A stretch of DNA of 20,181 bases from a virus. This document shows positions 1-20,181 of the stretch, piece by piece (position 1 is the first letter of the stretch; each line of letters opens with the position of its first letter). The translations under genes were made by a program, and so were the position numbers. The DNA is taken from the IMG/VR virus record IMGVR_UViG_3300010354_000896, positions 1-20,181 of that record; one strand, given 5' to 3'. Below the pieces are notes generated by a model. The model was not told the origin of the DNA, ran no database searches, and saw only the letters and a list, made by a program, of their open reading frames with translations.

Positions 1-3000
1 GTCGGCGCAGCCGTCGTAGTTGTAGTCGTTCCCAACGAAGCACACGCCACATTGCACGCGCCCGACGAAACATAAGGCCCTGTATAAGTCACCAAAGGAT
101 TGGCGGGTGGGCGCGTTGAGATATAGCTGCATCCGGTAGTACCTTGATAGGAGTCGTTTACGCAGTAATATCCAGCCACCCAAGGTGCTAGGGTAGTGGT
201 GGGCGGGGAAGTCGTGTCAGGGACAGGATCGTCTCCAAAACATCCAGCACCATAAATAATCGACTGACGATTGTCGTCTAGATCATCATTTTGAATAACT
301 AGCGTGCCAGTTATGGTGGTGATGTAACGAATTAAAGGAGAGGTTCCACCCATTGTGAAAGACAATTCCTGGGTGGCCGCTTTGGTCGAATCAAAGTAGT
401 AATAATTCACGGAATTGCTAGAAACAGTCCCAATTCCGGAGCCACCAGACCAAACAGGCGAGAAAGCACCTGTCATCTTCATGGCGAATTTGGAATTTTT
501 CAAATATTTCAAATTCAGATTATAAGTGGCTGGCCCGGTTGGATTAGCTCCACCAAACTTCCATCTTTCCGGAAGATACCAGTCTGTCTCATTGGCACTC
601 ATCTCGTAATGAACGCCGGGAGTCTGCAATTTAAGCGTGATATATTTGAAGACGATTGATGTGTTCGTGAATTTGAAAACAATGAATTCGCCTGCGTCGC
701 AAGCCAATCGTTTTTGCGAAGAGTCGTACAGGTTTGTGTAAGTGACAGATGGCGACCCAGAAGCATTCCAATTGCGGAATATCTCTAGCTTAACCCCGCC
801 GGAATTCTGCCCACCAGCCCACAGATAATAATTGGCAGAATATTTCGACCTAAATCGATAATAACGGGTTTCGCCAGCGTCAACAGTCGAAGTGAAGTAA
901 TTGACGCCACCAAGCTCTTCCAAATCCTGAAGTTCGGTATCGGCTTCGTAGGGCCAGGCATTGACGGGCGTATAACCGCCTGACTGCGGGTCGGTCGCAC
1001 GAACAGTATGGCTTTCGTTGGTTGATGTTAGTATTTCCACAGACCAGCTTGGCACACGCAAGATTCTTGAGCCAGAACCTGTGTCGGCGATCATGCCGAG
1101 TTTCCATTCTCCGTTTGGGCTATCGCCAAATAGATCAGTCAATGTCGTGCCAAACGGGGCGGATGAATCCGGCCAATATGTGACATTTTGATTGCCATTA
1201 GGGTTGGGGCGGAAATTTCCGCCAGAACCGAAAGAAAACAGGGAATCTCCGCTGTCGTTTGTAAAGACATAAGTCTGTTCTGTGATATTGCCGTTATTTG
1301 CCAGAGCGCCAGCCAACAAGACATCTTTGCCGGACGGCGCTTTCAACATCAAGACGCTTGTGCCCGACGAAGAAAAAGATGACACATCGTGCAAAGTTAT
1401 CTTCAAGCCGGCTATGACGCCGGACATACCAGAGAACTGAAGGCTTGTCCTGTAAACATCGCCGCCAGTCGCTTCGCCAGGAGGGTTGGTGAATTGCATC
1501 TGGACTTCTGGCACATTGGAAGGCCACGCAGGTGGTGGAGGCAATGTGTCCGGATCCATATTCAAGCGAATGAACATATCCGGTTGGGCGCAGTAGGTGC
1601 AAACCGGATCATAGATGATGGCGTCTTCACCAATGCCGCTTTCGTAACCATGCAACGAACAATCGTAGCTAAAAGGCGCTTTTTCCTCTAGAGTCACCGT
1701 CAAAACCACATCGCCACTCCAGAAGCCATCTGCCACATTGCCAGACGCAGGATTGGTGGCCGAAGGAACCAAGCGGTTGAATCCGTCTGTGTCAAATAAG
1801 CGAAAAGGATGGGTGCTGGTATTTTGCAATCGGAATGTGTAGGTCAAATTGGCAACGGATTTAGGCAAAACGCTACTGACCACATACCAGTTTGTGCCGT
1901 CGTCGCTGAACTCAAAATGATTGCCGGATATACCGTTTGTGTTAGAAGACGAGCGCACATAGGTCAAGGATTTTAGACATGTGGCTGGCAGCGGGTAGGG
2001 GCTTGCGGTCGTAGTGGTTGTGCTGGTGGTTGTGCTGGTTGTGGTAGTGGTCGGGCCGCTAGTGGTTGTGGTGGAAGTTGTGGTGGAAGTTGTGGTTGTC
2101 GTGGTGGTTGTGGTCGTGGTGCAGCAGGCTCCCAGAACGCGATAACCCGAAGAGGTTGCGTCATAAACAAGAGTCACCCCGCCCAACGGAAAAACAGGAT
2201 AATCATCCAGATCAAGAACCAACAGCTTGGAGCCGGACGGGGCTGTCACCGAAGCGTGCTTCAGGTAAAAAGTGTCCGTCTCGGAAATATTGAGCAGGTA
2301 GACAGTATCGCCATCCGCAATCGGCTCAACACCATGGATTTCATAGCCGTTGATTGGCGGATCAACGCGCAGGATATTCTTGCCGTAGCGAGGCAGTTCC
2401 AGCGTGCTTGTCCCAGACAAAGACGGAGTGTGGCTGGAGAGGGCGACCGCCGAATTCGCCAACATCTGATAGGTGCCGACATGCCTCCAGGCGGTTGAAT
2501 GCTGGCTGACCATCACGCCGTCGACGCGCACAAGGTCATAGCCGGACGGCCTGCCGGTATCCCTGTCCCAAACCACCTTTTGCAAGGCAACGGCTTGGGT
2601 GGCTTCATTCCAGTAGGCGAAGACATCGACGCACTTGCCAGCCACCTCGTTTGCCGAGACATTCGGGGCAATATCCAGCGTGAACTTGCGCCAGCGATTT
2701 TCCAGCGTGTCCCACAAGGAGATGTTGTTGCCCTGGAGAGGGGCCAGATAGACAGTCCCAGAGCCTGGGGCCTCTGTGTCCGTTGCCGAAAACGACAAGG
2801 CCGCATTGGCAATGCCGTTGTTGTCAAGGACATCCAGAAGACCATCCCGCGTCACGGTGTGGGCAATCGGATCGCCAGCTGCGTGCAGGACGGCTGTGGT
2901 GCCTTCCCTGCCTCGCACGACCGTCAAAGTGTTTGTCTGGTCATCAACAGCCGTAACCCGCATCACTTCCTGGCCGCAGGTCACCTCAAACGGAGGATGG

Positions 3001-3107
3001 GGGAATTTGAGGATGTTGACAACAACAATCTCGGTGTCGGTCGAACTGATCGCCGAACCAAGGTAGGTGACAGCCTGGTTGGAAAAACGGTGGAGTTGAC
3101 CGGCCAT
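1..3107 (-). CDS. Large tail fibre/adhesin-like protein, partial (3' end beyond window)
   Basis: The frame opens at ATG 3107 and has no stop down to base 1, giving at least 1035 residues. A Shine-Dalgarno-like GAGGAA lies 7-8 bases before the start, which is 2 bases after the previous stop. Residues 1-329 are paralogous to the neighbouring gene at 3820-4938. A Cys-Cys pair (328-329) leads into a Thr-rich linker at about 330-370. Residues about 555-693 resemble a proprotein-convertase P-domain, with KAPSGKDVLL, then GEWKLGMIAD, then a final SWSVEI strand. Beta-rich sequence follows, then further Thr-rich linkers near residue 960 and at the left edge, separated by a module with four cysteines. 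Inference: an extended virion surface protein for receptor or glycan binding. The C-terminus is not visible. The frame was checked codon by codon for most of its length. Confidence 0.85.
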   Translation of the reverse strand, partial: MAGQLHRFSNQAVTYLGSAISSTDTEIVVVNILKFPHPPFEVTCGQEVMRVTAVDDQTNTLTVVRGREGTTAVLHAAGDPIAHTVTRDGLLDVLDNNGIANAALSFSATDTEAPGSGTVYLAPLQGNNISLWDTLENRWRKFTLDIAPNVSANEVAGKCVDVFAYWNEATQAVALQKVVWDRDTGRPSGYDLVRVDGVMVSQHSTAWRHVGTYQMLANSAVALSSHTPSLSGTSTLELPRYGKNILRVDPPINGYEIHGVEPIADGDTVYLLNISETDTFYLKHASVTAPSGSKLLVLDLDDYPVFPLGGVTLVYDATSSGYRVLGACCTTTTTTTTTTTSTTTSTTTTSGPTTTTTSTTTSTTTTTASPYPLPATCLKSLTYVRSSSNTNGISGNHFEFSDDGTNWYVVSSVLPKSVANLTYTFRLQNTSTHPFRLFDTDGFNRLVPSATNPASGNVADGFWSGDVVLTVTLEEKAPFSYDCSLHGYESGIGEDAIIYDPVCTYCAQPDMFIRLNMDPDTLPPPPAWPSNVPEVQMQFTNPPGEATGGDVYRTSLQFSGMSGVIAGLKITLHDVSSFSSSGTSVLMLKAPSGKDVLLAGALANNGNITEQTYVFTNDSGDSLFSFGSGGNFRPNPNGNQNVTYWPDSSAPFGTTLTDLFGDSPNGEWKLGMIADTGSGSRILRVPSWSVEILTSTNESHTVRATDPQSGGYTPVNAWPYEADTELQDLEELGGVNYFTSTVDAGETRYYRFRSKYSANYYLWAGGQNSGGVKLEIFRNWNASGSPSVTYTNLYDSSQKRLACDAGEFIVFKFTNTSIVFKYITLKLQTPGVHYEMSANETDWYLPERWKFGGANPTGPATYNLNLKYLKNSKFAMKMTGAFSPVWSGGSGIGTVSSNSVNYYYFDSTKAATQELSFTMGGTSPLIRYITTITGTLVIQNDDLDDNRQSIIYGAGCFGDDPVPDTTSPPTTTLAPWVAGYYCVNDSYQGTTGCSYISTRPPANPLVTYTGPYVSSGACNVACASLGTTTTTTAAP
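2011..2118 (-). repeat. Thr-rich linker DNA with 12-bp tandem repeats
   Basis: This stretch encodes the first Thr-rich linker of the large tail protein. On the plus strand GTGGTTGTGCTG occurs twice in tandem (2014-2025, 2026-2037) and GTGGTGGAAGTT twice in tandem (2068-2079, 2080-2091). Both units are exactly four codons, so gain or loss of a unit keeps the frame. The function of the encoded segment is probably a flexible or glycosylatable spacer. Confidence 0.85.
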
Positions 3108-3819: not shown

Positions 3820-4938
3820 TCAGTTCCCTCGGTAAAGAATGATGTCGCCGGATTCATTGGCGTATGCCAGCAGATTGCCCTCTCCGTCTTCCAGAGCGTC
3901 TTGAACGATGTCCGGATCGGTCTCGCGGGAAGGGCGGAAGAAACAGTTGGCCACAAACCTCCAGGCTCGGCTGACCACATCGTAGATGCAGGCCACGCCC
4001 CCGCCTGGCGGGATGGGTAGATCGCCTTTTTGGGGCAGTAGGAATTTCTCGTTGGTCAACGCCGACGCAGAAGCGTGCTTCAGCAGCACCCCTTGGGAAG
4101 ATGACACATTGCTCAGGATCACCATCTTGCCGTCTCGCGCTGACTGTAGGCCGTGCAACACCACGGCACTCACGGTCGGATTAAGCCGCACAACCTTGAA
4201 TCCTTCGTGGCGGGCGGTCAAGTTGTTGGCCGCACTCAAGGTGACCCGATACGCATTTGGCGTGAACAGGGTGCCTTGTTTCTGGATTGTCCCGACATAA
4301 CGCCTGGGAACAAGGTTGTAGCTATCTGTTCTAGTCGCCACCCCGTCCCTGAGGGTCGTTGCCGGACGGGAACTGGAAGTCGACCAAACAGCCATGAAAT
4401 ACATGACCTTTTGTAGCGATTCATTCCAGTGAGCAAAAATGTCAGCCGCTTCCCCGTCAGCCAGAATCGGCAGCAGCGTTTCCGTCCCCGCCGGAAAGCG
4501 TCTCCAGCCATTTGTCATGGGGTCGAGCAGCGAGACACCGTTTCCGCTCAGGGGCTGGAGTGTGATGGACGTGCCAGGGACGGGGCGGACAGAGGCATAT
4601 CCCTTGTCGTCGGCAACGGTCAGGAAGGCTTTTTGCGTCAAGACCGGCTTGACAGATCTGCCGGTGAGATGTTTGGTCGCCCCGGTAGATTCCTGGGCGC
4701 GCAAGACAGTCAGGACAAGTTCTGGAGATGACTGCGTCAGAGAGAGAAGAAGCCCGACCGGAGACGCTGACCGGGATGACAAGGCTTGGACAGTACAGAT
4801 TTCCGAATCAATAACAATGTCGAAGGGGGGATGCTGCGGGAATTCTGACGAGTAATTGACGACAATCTGGCTGGAAACCGCATCGACTGACTCTAGGAGT
4901 GTCGTTGCGGCACCGCCAAATCGCCGAAAATCAGTCAT
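3820..4938 (-). CDS. Tail protein, paralogue of the large adhesin N-terminus
   Basis: A 372-residue protein from ATG 4938 (MTDFRRFGGAAT). An in-frame start 21 bases upstream exists, but 4938 overlaps the preceding stop (ATGACTGA), has GAGGGG upstream, and aligns with the start of the paralogue. The whole protein aligns with residues 1-329 of the large tail protein: FPQHPPFDIVIDSEI against FPHPPFEVTCGQEV, NGWRRF against NRWRKF, DIFAHWNES against DVFAYWNEA, and VLLKHAS against FYLKHAS. It lacks the Thr linker, P-domain and Cys modules. Inference: a minor tail or baseplate-distal protein whose fold was reused as the anchor of the longer adhesin. Direction of duplication cannot be told here. Confidence 0.75.
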   Translation of the reverse strand: MTDFRRFGGAATTLLESVDAVSSQIVVNYSSEFPQHPPFDIVIDSEICTVQALSSRSASPVGLLLSLTQSSPELVLTVLRAQESTGATKHLTGRSVKPVLTQKAFLTVADDKGYASVRPVPGTSITLQPLSGNGVSLLDPMTNGWRRFPAGTETLLPILADGEAADIFAHWNESLQKVMYFMAVWSTSSSRPATTLRDGVATRTDSYNLVPRRYVGTIQKQGTLFTPNAYRVTLSAANNLTARHEGFKVVRLNPTVSAVVLHGLQSARDGKMVILSNVSSSQGVLLKHASASALTNEKFLLPQKGDLPIPPGGGVACIYDVVSRAWRFVANCFFRPSRETDPDIVQDALEDGEGNLLAYANESGDIILYRGN

Positions 4939-5260
4939 CGTCGAACCGCCCCTCGGCAAATGCTAGTCGGAGGGCCTCGGTCGCCTGCTGCGCCTGTTCG
5001 TCGGAAAAACCGGCCCGGATCAACTGCTTATACACCTTGTGGCGGGTGTACATCCGGGTGATGGGGCCGTTACCTTGAGCCAGCGCCTGGAGGGCAGAGC
5101 GTGCTTTCTTGCATTCCCAAAGCAATCGCAATGCCTGGATGCCTATGGAGATAATCATCAAGATGGTGAACGGGTCGAAACCGACCAGTTTTTCTTCCAG
5201 ATAACCTTGCAGTACCGGGAATTCGCCACTCTTGGCTGGTTTAATTTCCGAATCTGTCAT
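4931..5260 (-). CDS. Small one-TM phage protein
   Basis: A 109-residue protein with a hydrophobic segment around residues 30-48 (FTILMIISIGIQALRLLW), followed by a basic helical stretch and an acidic C-terminus (FAEGRFDDD). The start has a very strong ribosome site, AAGGAGG, about 8 bases before ATG. The 3' end overlaps the next tail gene by 8 bases, and the 5' end overlaps the preceding small gene by 20 bases. The position between a peptidase gene and tail genes would fit a lysis or membrane role such as a holin, but a single TM with a long cytoplasmic tail is not diagnostic. I do not recognise the family. Confidence 0.7.
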   Translation of the reverse strand: MTDSEIKPAKSGEFPVLQGYLEEKLVGFDPFTILMIISIGIQALRLLWECKKARSALQALAQGNGPITRMYTRHKVYKQLIRAGFSDEQAQQATEALRLAFAEGRFDDD

Positions 5261-5453
5261 CGATAGGCCTCCTTGGTCCCCTGCGCCACCAGCACTTCAC
5301 CTTGTTGTCCCACCACCAATGTTCAAGATTGTCTGGGTTGTGGGCGAGGGCGGCACCATAGGGAGCCAGCCAGTCAGCGGACGGGATCAGGTTGAACGCC
5401 TCGGCAGGCGGGGCATTGCCTATCAGGAGCGTTCCAAGGAAGAGGCTTTTCAT
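5241..5453 (-). CDS. Small predicted exported protein
   Basis: A 70-residue protein starting MKSLFLGTLLIGNAPPAEAF. The hydrophobic N-terminus followed by AEA looks like a short signal peptide cleaved near residue 19. The mature part is about 50 residues and rich in aromatic residues, with WWW around residue 47 and a further WW near 55, and ends basic. The ATG overlaps the stop of the peptidase gene as ATGA, which argues for translational coupling and therefore for a real gene. It could be a small lysis accessory or an inhibitor of the preceding peptidase. Neither role is shown by the sequence. Confidence 0.6.
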   Translation of the reverse strand: MKSLFLGTLLIGNAPPAEAFNLIPSADWLAPYGAALAHNPDNLEHWWWDNKVKCWWRRGPRRPIDDRFGN

Positions 5454-6385
5454 TTGCCGACCAGATCAAACAGGGCCATGCTGATGTCTTGGCTGGGGAA
5501 GTTGTCGTATTGGCTGACCAGGAAGGTGTCGCCTTGCCCGATCATGCGCTCAATGGTCTTGCGTTTGACCTTTAGGGTGCCGCGTGGCATCTCCTCGCCC
5601 GTGCCCGGGTTCTTGACCACGCCGTGGACATCCCCCCAAGAGTTGGCGATGTAGACATGCTCCTGATCAACCAGGCAGTAGTCGTAAATGCACATTTGAT
5701 GCGCCCAAGATCCGGAAGGGTCGTGGTACCCGTCTGCCCCGGGCGTCATCTCAAAACCCTGGTCGCTGGCGACGGTGCAGGAATAACCGTTGGCTAGTCC
5801 GGCGATCAGATCGTCCCAAGTCTTCACCTTGGCCGCCGATCGCACCAGATACTTCTTGCCGACTTCCAGAAACTTGCTGTCCGGCCCCTTTTTGCCCCAA
5901 GTCCTGGCGATGTCTTTGCCATAGGGAGGACAGTCATCCTTGTCGGCGAAAATGGTGCCGTATTTCATGACGCCAGCAGCCGCCCACGAGCCGATGGAAC
6001 CGTCCCCAGACATGCGCCCGCCACCGATCTGCACCCGGCTGATGCCGTAGATGTAGGGAGCAAAGACCGGATGGAACTCTTCTGCGTCGCCGCGCATGAG
6101 AATGTCACAGCACGCAAGGTACTCGACTGCGTGCTTCATCCCCCAGGAGACACAGTCACCGATCAGCTGGACACTCAGCTTGCCGCCAATGTCACGATTC
6201 AGGACTTTGCGGGCAACCCGGTAGTTCTCGGAAAACTTCGGGGGCGCGCCGATGGCTCCAACAATCTGGAAGTCAACGAAATTGTAATCGTCCTTGACCA
6301 TCTGGTAGCCGATGGCCGCTTCTTCAGCCCCGGGCCAACCAGACTGGTTGCCGTTCTTGTAGGCGTCGATGATTTCGTTATCCAT
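5450..6385 (-). CDS. Papain-family (C1-like) cysteine peptidase
   Basis: A 311-residue protein with the papain catalytic order. The oxyanion Gln and nucleophile are in QLIGDCVSWG (Q73, C78), the His is in SWAHQMCIYDY (H229), and the Asn is in IANSWG (N248). The N-terminal 60 residues could serve as a short propeptide. There is no signal peptide, so the enzyme probably acts in the cytoplasm, in the virion, or after lysis. It is followed immediately by a coupled exported small protein and then by tail genes. Plausible roles are maturation of virion proteins, a tail-borne degradative activity, or attack on host proteins. Family assignment is firm; substrate is unknown. The 5' region carries paired GTCCGGAC palindromes. 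Confidence 0.85.
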   Translation of the reverse strand: MDNEIIDAYKNGNQSGWPGAEEAAIGYQMVKDDYNFVDFQIVGAIGAPPKFSENYRVARKVLNRDIGGKLSVQLIGDCVSWGMKHAVEYLACCDILMRGDAEEFHPVFAPYIYGISRVQIGGGRMSGDGSIGSWAAAGVMKYGTIFADKDDCPPYGKDIARTWGKKGPDSKFLEVGKKYLVRSAAKVKTWDDLIAGLANGYSCTVASDQGFEMTPGADGYHDPSGSWAHQMCIYDYCLVDQEHVYIANSWGDVHGVVKNPGTGEEMPRGTLKVKRKTIERMIGQGDTFLVSQYDNFPSQDISMALFDLVGK

Positions 6386-19763: not shown

Positions 19764-20117
19764 TTAGTACCGGCAGCATGCGTAAAACATGCCGTTGCGT
19801 CCCTGTGCAACGCCGATCTCGCGGGGAGAACCGCCGAAACGGGGCTTGCAGCAGGAATTGATGGCAGCCTGGGGGGTGGAACCCATACCCACGCCCTCAA
19901 AGCGATATCCGCCGCGGAAAAAGTGGCCAATCCTGCCAATTCCGGCCAGATAAGCAGCCACTTCCTGGGCGTTAGTAACCGTGGTAACGGTGGTTGTGGT
20001 CTGGGTCTGGGTTACGGTTTTGGTTCCTGTCACAACCGCCTTACGACGTAAAGGGCCAGCCGAAGCTGCGGAAGCCACCATAGCCAGAGCCAACAGACCA
20101 AAAACAAATCGCTTCAT
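19764..20117 (-). CDS. Secreted Cys-containing small protein
   Basis: A 117-residue protein from ATG 20117 (MKRFVFGLLALAMVASAASA). A Sec signal peptide probably ends after residue 20. A Thr-rich segment (about 30-46, with VTQTQTTTTVTTVT) is followed by a conserved C-terminal domain with NSCCKPRFGG and IGVAQGRNGMFYACCRY. This tail pattern, CC followed by GVAxGxNGxxYAC, matches a small secreted family that I recall from Planctomycetota genomes and related viruses. The export of the product suggests a role at the cell surface. GAGG lies 6 bases before the start. Confidence 0.8.
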   Translation of the reverse strand: MKRFVFGLLALAMVASAASAGPLRRKAVVTGTKTVTQTQTTTTVTTVTNAQEVAAYLAGIGRIGHFFRGGYRFEGVGMGSTPQAAINSCCKPRFGGSPREIGVAQGRNGMFYACCRY

Positions 20118-20181
20118 AGTTACCTCGTCCTTGAAAAAAGGCACAGGCCGCCTGCCCACGCCGACTCCTTATGGTAAACCA
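20118..20181. other. Window edge, non-coding, with a terminator
   Basis: No gene is seen in these 64 bases. They contain the terminator-like hairpin at 20134-20156 and the leader of the secreted protein gene; the gene that precedes them lies outside the window. Confidence 0.6.
20134..20156 (-). terminator. Terminator-like hairpin before the secreted gene
   Basis: GGCAGGCGGCCTGTGCC on the minus strand forms a short GC-rich hairpin (GGCA with TGCC outside, GG with CC inside) followed by six T (20134-20139). It lies 16 bases before the start of the secreted protein gene. Confidence 0.6.

Follow-up and report, generated by a model that had tools for sequence, protein, structure and literature searches.

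The window, a 20,181-bp viral contig from IMG/VR, carries at one edge a tail-fibre-like modular ORF, whose regions are collected in Table 1. Full versions of the ORF were found in near-identical relatives, with lengths of 1202 aa (L001, a contig with a stretch identical to the window) and 1213 aa (L002), the latter version being present on two contigs, L002 included. The C-terminus of the ORF consists of Thr-linked Cys-rich modules, and several regions besides the putative P-domain described below had no family match. No Pfam or PHROG match was obtained for residues 697–835, and the PDB structure matches of this region and of residues 376–500 were not meaningful. Within the ORF, at 1608–1982 on the minus strand, an HPF ... 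YDCSLHG pattern resembles cupredoxin copper sites, and this part gave a weak match to a baseplate PHROG (E 0.0019). A 379-aa protein encoded at 3820–4959 on the minus strand looked by eye like a paralog of residues 1–330 of the ORF.

Table 1. Regions of the tail-fibre-like ORF. Positions are those of the window, except in the last line, which gives positions in the related contigs.
Feature	Residues	Position	Strand	Basis or remark
Tail-fibre-like modular ORF	1–1035	3..3107	minus	1035 aa in window; 3' end missing at contig edge
N-terminal domain, tail-fibre type	1–110	2778..3107	minus	PHROG matches
Poly-Thr/Ser linker	329–373	1989..2123	minus	Direct reading; low-complexity mucin-like Pfam match, E 0.012
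Divergent P-domain (very probable)	538–695	1023..1496	minus	Pfam, hhalign, phmmer, AlphaFold2 (AF2), Foldseek
Region after the P-domain	697–835	603..1019	minus	No family match
Thr-rich linker and Cys-rich module	960–1035	3..230	minus	Following Cys-rich module differs between L001 and L002
Differing Cys-rich module between Thr linkers, beyond the window		L001 4593–5096; L002 9495–10031		

The sequence-only reading had proposed a proprotein-convertase P-domain at residues 555–693, approximately. When the segment 538–695 was scanned alone, P_proprotein (PF01483) was its best Pfam match (E 0.027), although the score of 15.0 bits lay below the curated cut-off of 21 bits and the match was confined to the model's C-terminal part. 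The full-length ORF gave no P-domain match in Pfam, NCBIfam or PHROGs. For further comparison, a hand-written P-domain consensus, with a score of 93 bits against PF01483, served as the query for gathering bacterial P-domains from the GTDB species genomes. The segment aligned by hhalign to 79 of these domains with a score of 34.6 over 117 columns, against 20.1 at most in 200 column shuffles, and to the 12 P-domains closest to the consensus with a probability of 91.3% and a P value of 9.6e-7 over 115 collinear columns. As a single sequence, it matched a planctomycete P-domain (L026) at 27.9 bits in phmmer, while 300 shuffled queries reached no more than 12.8 bits. Among 1157 protein tiles from the phage group and a Flavobacterium phage, every tile with E < 0.06 was this P-domain, and the next unrelated tile had an E value of 0.23. 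In plain HMMER, one of 5000 shuffles scored above the real segment, indicating that the one-sequence signal is weak and that the profile comparisons carry the case.

The order of landmarks in the segment also agreed with the proposed family. The motifs APSGK (PSG at about 591–593), GEWKL (666–670) and PSWSVEI (SWS at 687–689) were confirmed in P-domain order, and the segment retains an SGMSGxI strand, APSG, LTDLFG, NGEWKL and PSWSVEI. It thereby shares with PF01483 the sequence of an SGxSGxI strand, an (S/A)PSG turn, an LxxFxG-type stretch, an NGxWxL strand and an SWS end, and a jelly-roll is predicted for it when bacterial P-domains are in the alignment; the NGxWxL strand and final SW segment of the family are present as NGEWKL and PSWSVEI. 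The phage copy differs from the family in its score below the Pfam cut-off, in the absence of an accompanying S8 protease, in a longer loop before LTDLFG, ahead of the NGEWKL strand, and in the loss of the Asp of the DL pair and of DxGxL before the last Trp, in place of which TSV and SGSRILRV stand in the alignment. The domain had been described as lying between Thr-rich linkers, which holds broadly, but the Thr tract of residues 329–373 and the next one, at about residue 964, are each separated from it by other regions. Comparison with L002 revealed 40 synonymous and 6 non-synonymous differences in the P-domain codons, indicating purifying selection on the domain; synonymous changes were in large excess in every region of the ORF. 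The profile–profile comparison, the single-sequence matches to planctomycete P-domains, the weak, sub-cut-off but top-ranked Pfam match and the structure model described next, which was built with P-domain rows, all support the proposed assignment, and a divergent proprotein-convertase P-domain very probably occupies residues 538–695.

The outcome of structure prediction depended on the alignment supplied. With phage rows only, AlphaFold2 returned a poor model (pLDDT 47, pTM 0.48), and its PDB matches were assorted jelly-rolls, with lectin, GOLD and CBM folds among them but no furin. Once 75 bacterial P-domains had been included in the alignment, pLDDT rose to 79.1 and pTM to 0.79, and furin and Kex2 became the best PDB matches in Foldseek (probability 1.00). 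Because the P-domain rows themselves suggest the fold, the latter model indicates compatibility and is not independent proof; the model without them was of low confidence and no more than generically jelly-roll. In an alternative explanation, the segment is a generic jelly-roll tail domain, galactose-binding or CBM-like, that came to resemble a P-domain by convergence of beta-sandwich sequence features. In its favour, furin was absent from the matches of the model built without P-domain rows, and a tail-fibre family, phrog_6722, matched residues 572–637 (window 1197–1394, minus strand) with an E value of 0.001. A generic jelly-roll would not, however, readily account for a collinear 115-column match to P-domains or for the SG(L/M)SG, NGxWxL and SWS landmarks held in common with L026, and no CBM or lectin family appeared among the Pfam matches. 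We therefore regard convergence as unlikely, though it is the most serious of the alternatives.

The placement of the domain in a tail protein, as the sequence-only reading had it, was supported by the N-terminus of the ORF. Its first 100 residues or so matched the tail fiber family phrog_8469 (E 6.7e-9), the tail protein family phrog_1101 (E 3.5e-8) and the tail fiber family phrog_38058 (E 5.5e-7); the likeness to these three families is confined to the N-terminal 100 residues and ends well before the P-domain. The product of the ORF is presumably located in the virion, where it would function as an adhesin. P-domains and Thr-rich linkers are both common among exported proteins, and other genes of the window have signal-peptide-like starts, so that the ORF could instead encode an exported or cell-surface protein of the phage. 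We consider this improbable, since the N-terminal matches are to tail-fibre families and direct reading found no evident signal peptide at the N-terminus. Between flanks that are nearly identical, L001 and L002 carry wholly different Cys-rich modules past residue 1035, a pattern that looks like the exchange of a tip module. The part swapped between strains is the C-terminal Cys-rich module and not the P-domain, and the location of the most variable part at this end is consistent with a fibre whose shaft is conserved and whose tips can be exchanged.

P-domains usually accompany subtilisin-like proteases (subtilases), and we asked whether the phage domain might serve proteolysis, either by presenting or stabilising a phage protease or by binding its substrate. 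In kexin-like proteases, the P-domain has a part in substrate binding (PMC3158780), which, by analogy, would also make a binding role alone plausible. A nearby 311-aa protein (5450–6385, minus strand) shows papain-like motifs by eye (GDCVSWG, SWAHQM and ANSWGD) and would be a candidate partner, but it had no Pfam or PDB match. No S8 protease (Peptidase_S8) was detected in the contig of the window or in four related contigs, and the ORF itself contains no protease domain, so that the P-domain belongs to no detectable convertase. A proteolytic role thus appears very unlikely. A chance resemblance to P-domains, for which the sub-threshold Pfam score and the single higher-scoring shuffle in plain HMMER might be cited, is the least credible of the explanations, as the hhalign and phmmer shuffles scored far below the real segment.

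The occurrence of P-domains in other phages was rare by frequency. No match was found by tblastn among 50,697 GenBank phage records with the segment, the P-domain consensus or a bacterial P-domain as the query, none of the PHROGs was convincingly similar to bacterial P-domains, and IMG/VR yielded no further phage P-domain when it was searched with the consensus and with an alignment. Scanning 2.9 million IMG/VR contigs for two DNA motif patterns, the first with a protein motif that covers 51 of the 79 bacterial P-domains, gave no true match, although divergent copies like the present one would be missed by such patterns. The single pattern match (L100) lay between unrelated genes and was discarded as a chance hit. 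The claim that a P-domain would be unusual in a phage therefore stands as a matter of frequency, but not as one of precedent. The top viral structure match in BFVD was A0A6J7WET4, a protein of an uncultured Caudovirales phage named 'Proprotein convertase, P', which is likened to the phage segment by structure and by its database name; it has a P-domain-like fold (TM 0.65 by query, 19% identity) and differs in being a 612-aa protein. The second BFVD match, a Flavobacterium phage structural protein, was not retained, as no P-domain was found by profile in mumin6-1 gp063 (504 aa), its assumed homolog. The phage protein is thus a rare domain combination with one named phage precedent, and a modest curiosity in this respect.

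The best clue to the host of the phage is a small secreted-type protein encoded at 19764–20159 on the minus strand. Within the family of a Gemmataceae MAG, four genomes contain homologs of it with 55–69% identity; the 118 genomes examined from the phylum of a Bacteroidota isolate contain none. Judged from this gene, the host is probably a planctomycete of the Gemmataceae. P-domains scoring above the Pfam cut-off were present in all four genomes of the genus concerned, their carriers being an S8 protease as well as repeat proteins with no visible protease in the stretch read. Translations of the host-genus loci L108–L111, which lie on the opposite strand, were left out of this comparison. The single P-domain closest to the phage copy, L026, also belongs to a planctomycete repeat protein without a visible protease. 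It is the best single-sequence match and has the landmarks mentioned above in common with the phage segment. Like the phage ORF, the repeat proteins (L026 and, from the probable host genus, L112 and L113) carry a P-domain module in a repetitive protein, in their case of exported type; they differ in that their P-domains are much closer to the Pfam consensus and in lacking a phage tail N-terminus. The phage profile also matched weakly in a further planctomycete genome (L107), but the gene at that place was no credible carrier of a P-domain, and the match was set aside. It is reasonable to infer, as distinct from demonstrate, that the phage P-domain was taken from planctomycete surface proteins.

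Taken together, these data make it likely, in our judgment, that the ORF encodes a phage tail-fibre or receptor-binding protein of modular build with a divergent, non-catalytic P-domain. In this ORF, an N-terminal domain of the tail-attachment type is followed by a Thr-rich stalk, by regions including the P-domain, and then by small Thr-linked Cys-rich modules. The P-domain, as a jelly-roll beta-sandwich, most likely acts passively in adhesion or spacing, with no catalytic part, and would help to keep the tail on the cell envelope or exopolymer of its planctomycete host, while the exchangeable C-terminal Cys-rich modules would provide fine specificity. A more specific proposal, which we put forward only tentatively, is that a planctomycete phage recruited the P-domain of a host surface protein into its tail fibre as an envelope adhesion module, making it a stand-alone binding domain in the virion. 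Most work on P-domains has concerned their partnership with subtilases, and what they do outside proteases, such as in the planctomycete repeat proteins, is little understood. If true, a virion P-domain would offer a small, testable protein for learning what the domain can bind on its own, and a clue to the way in which phages attach to Planctomycetota.
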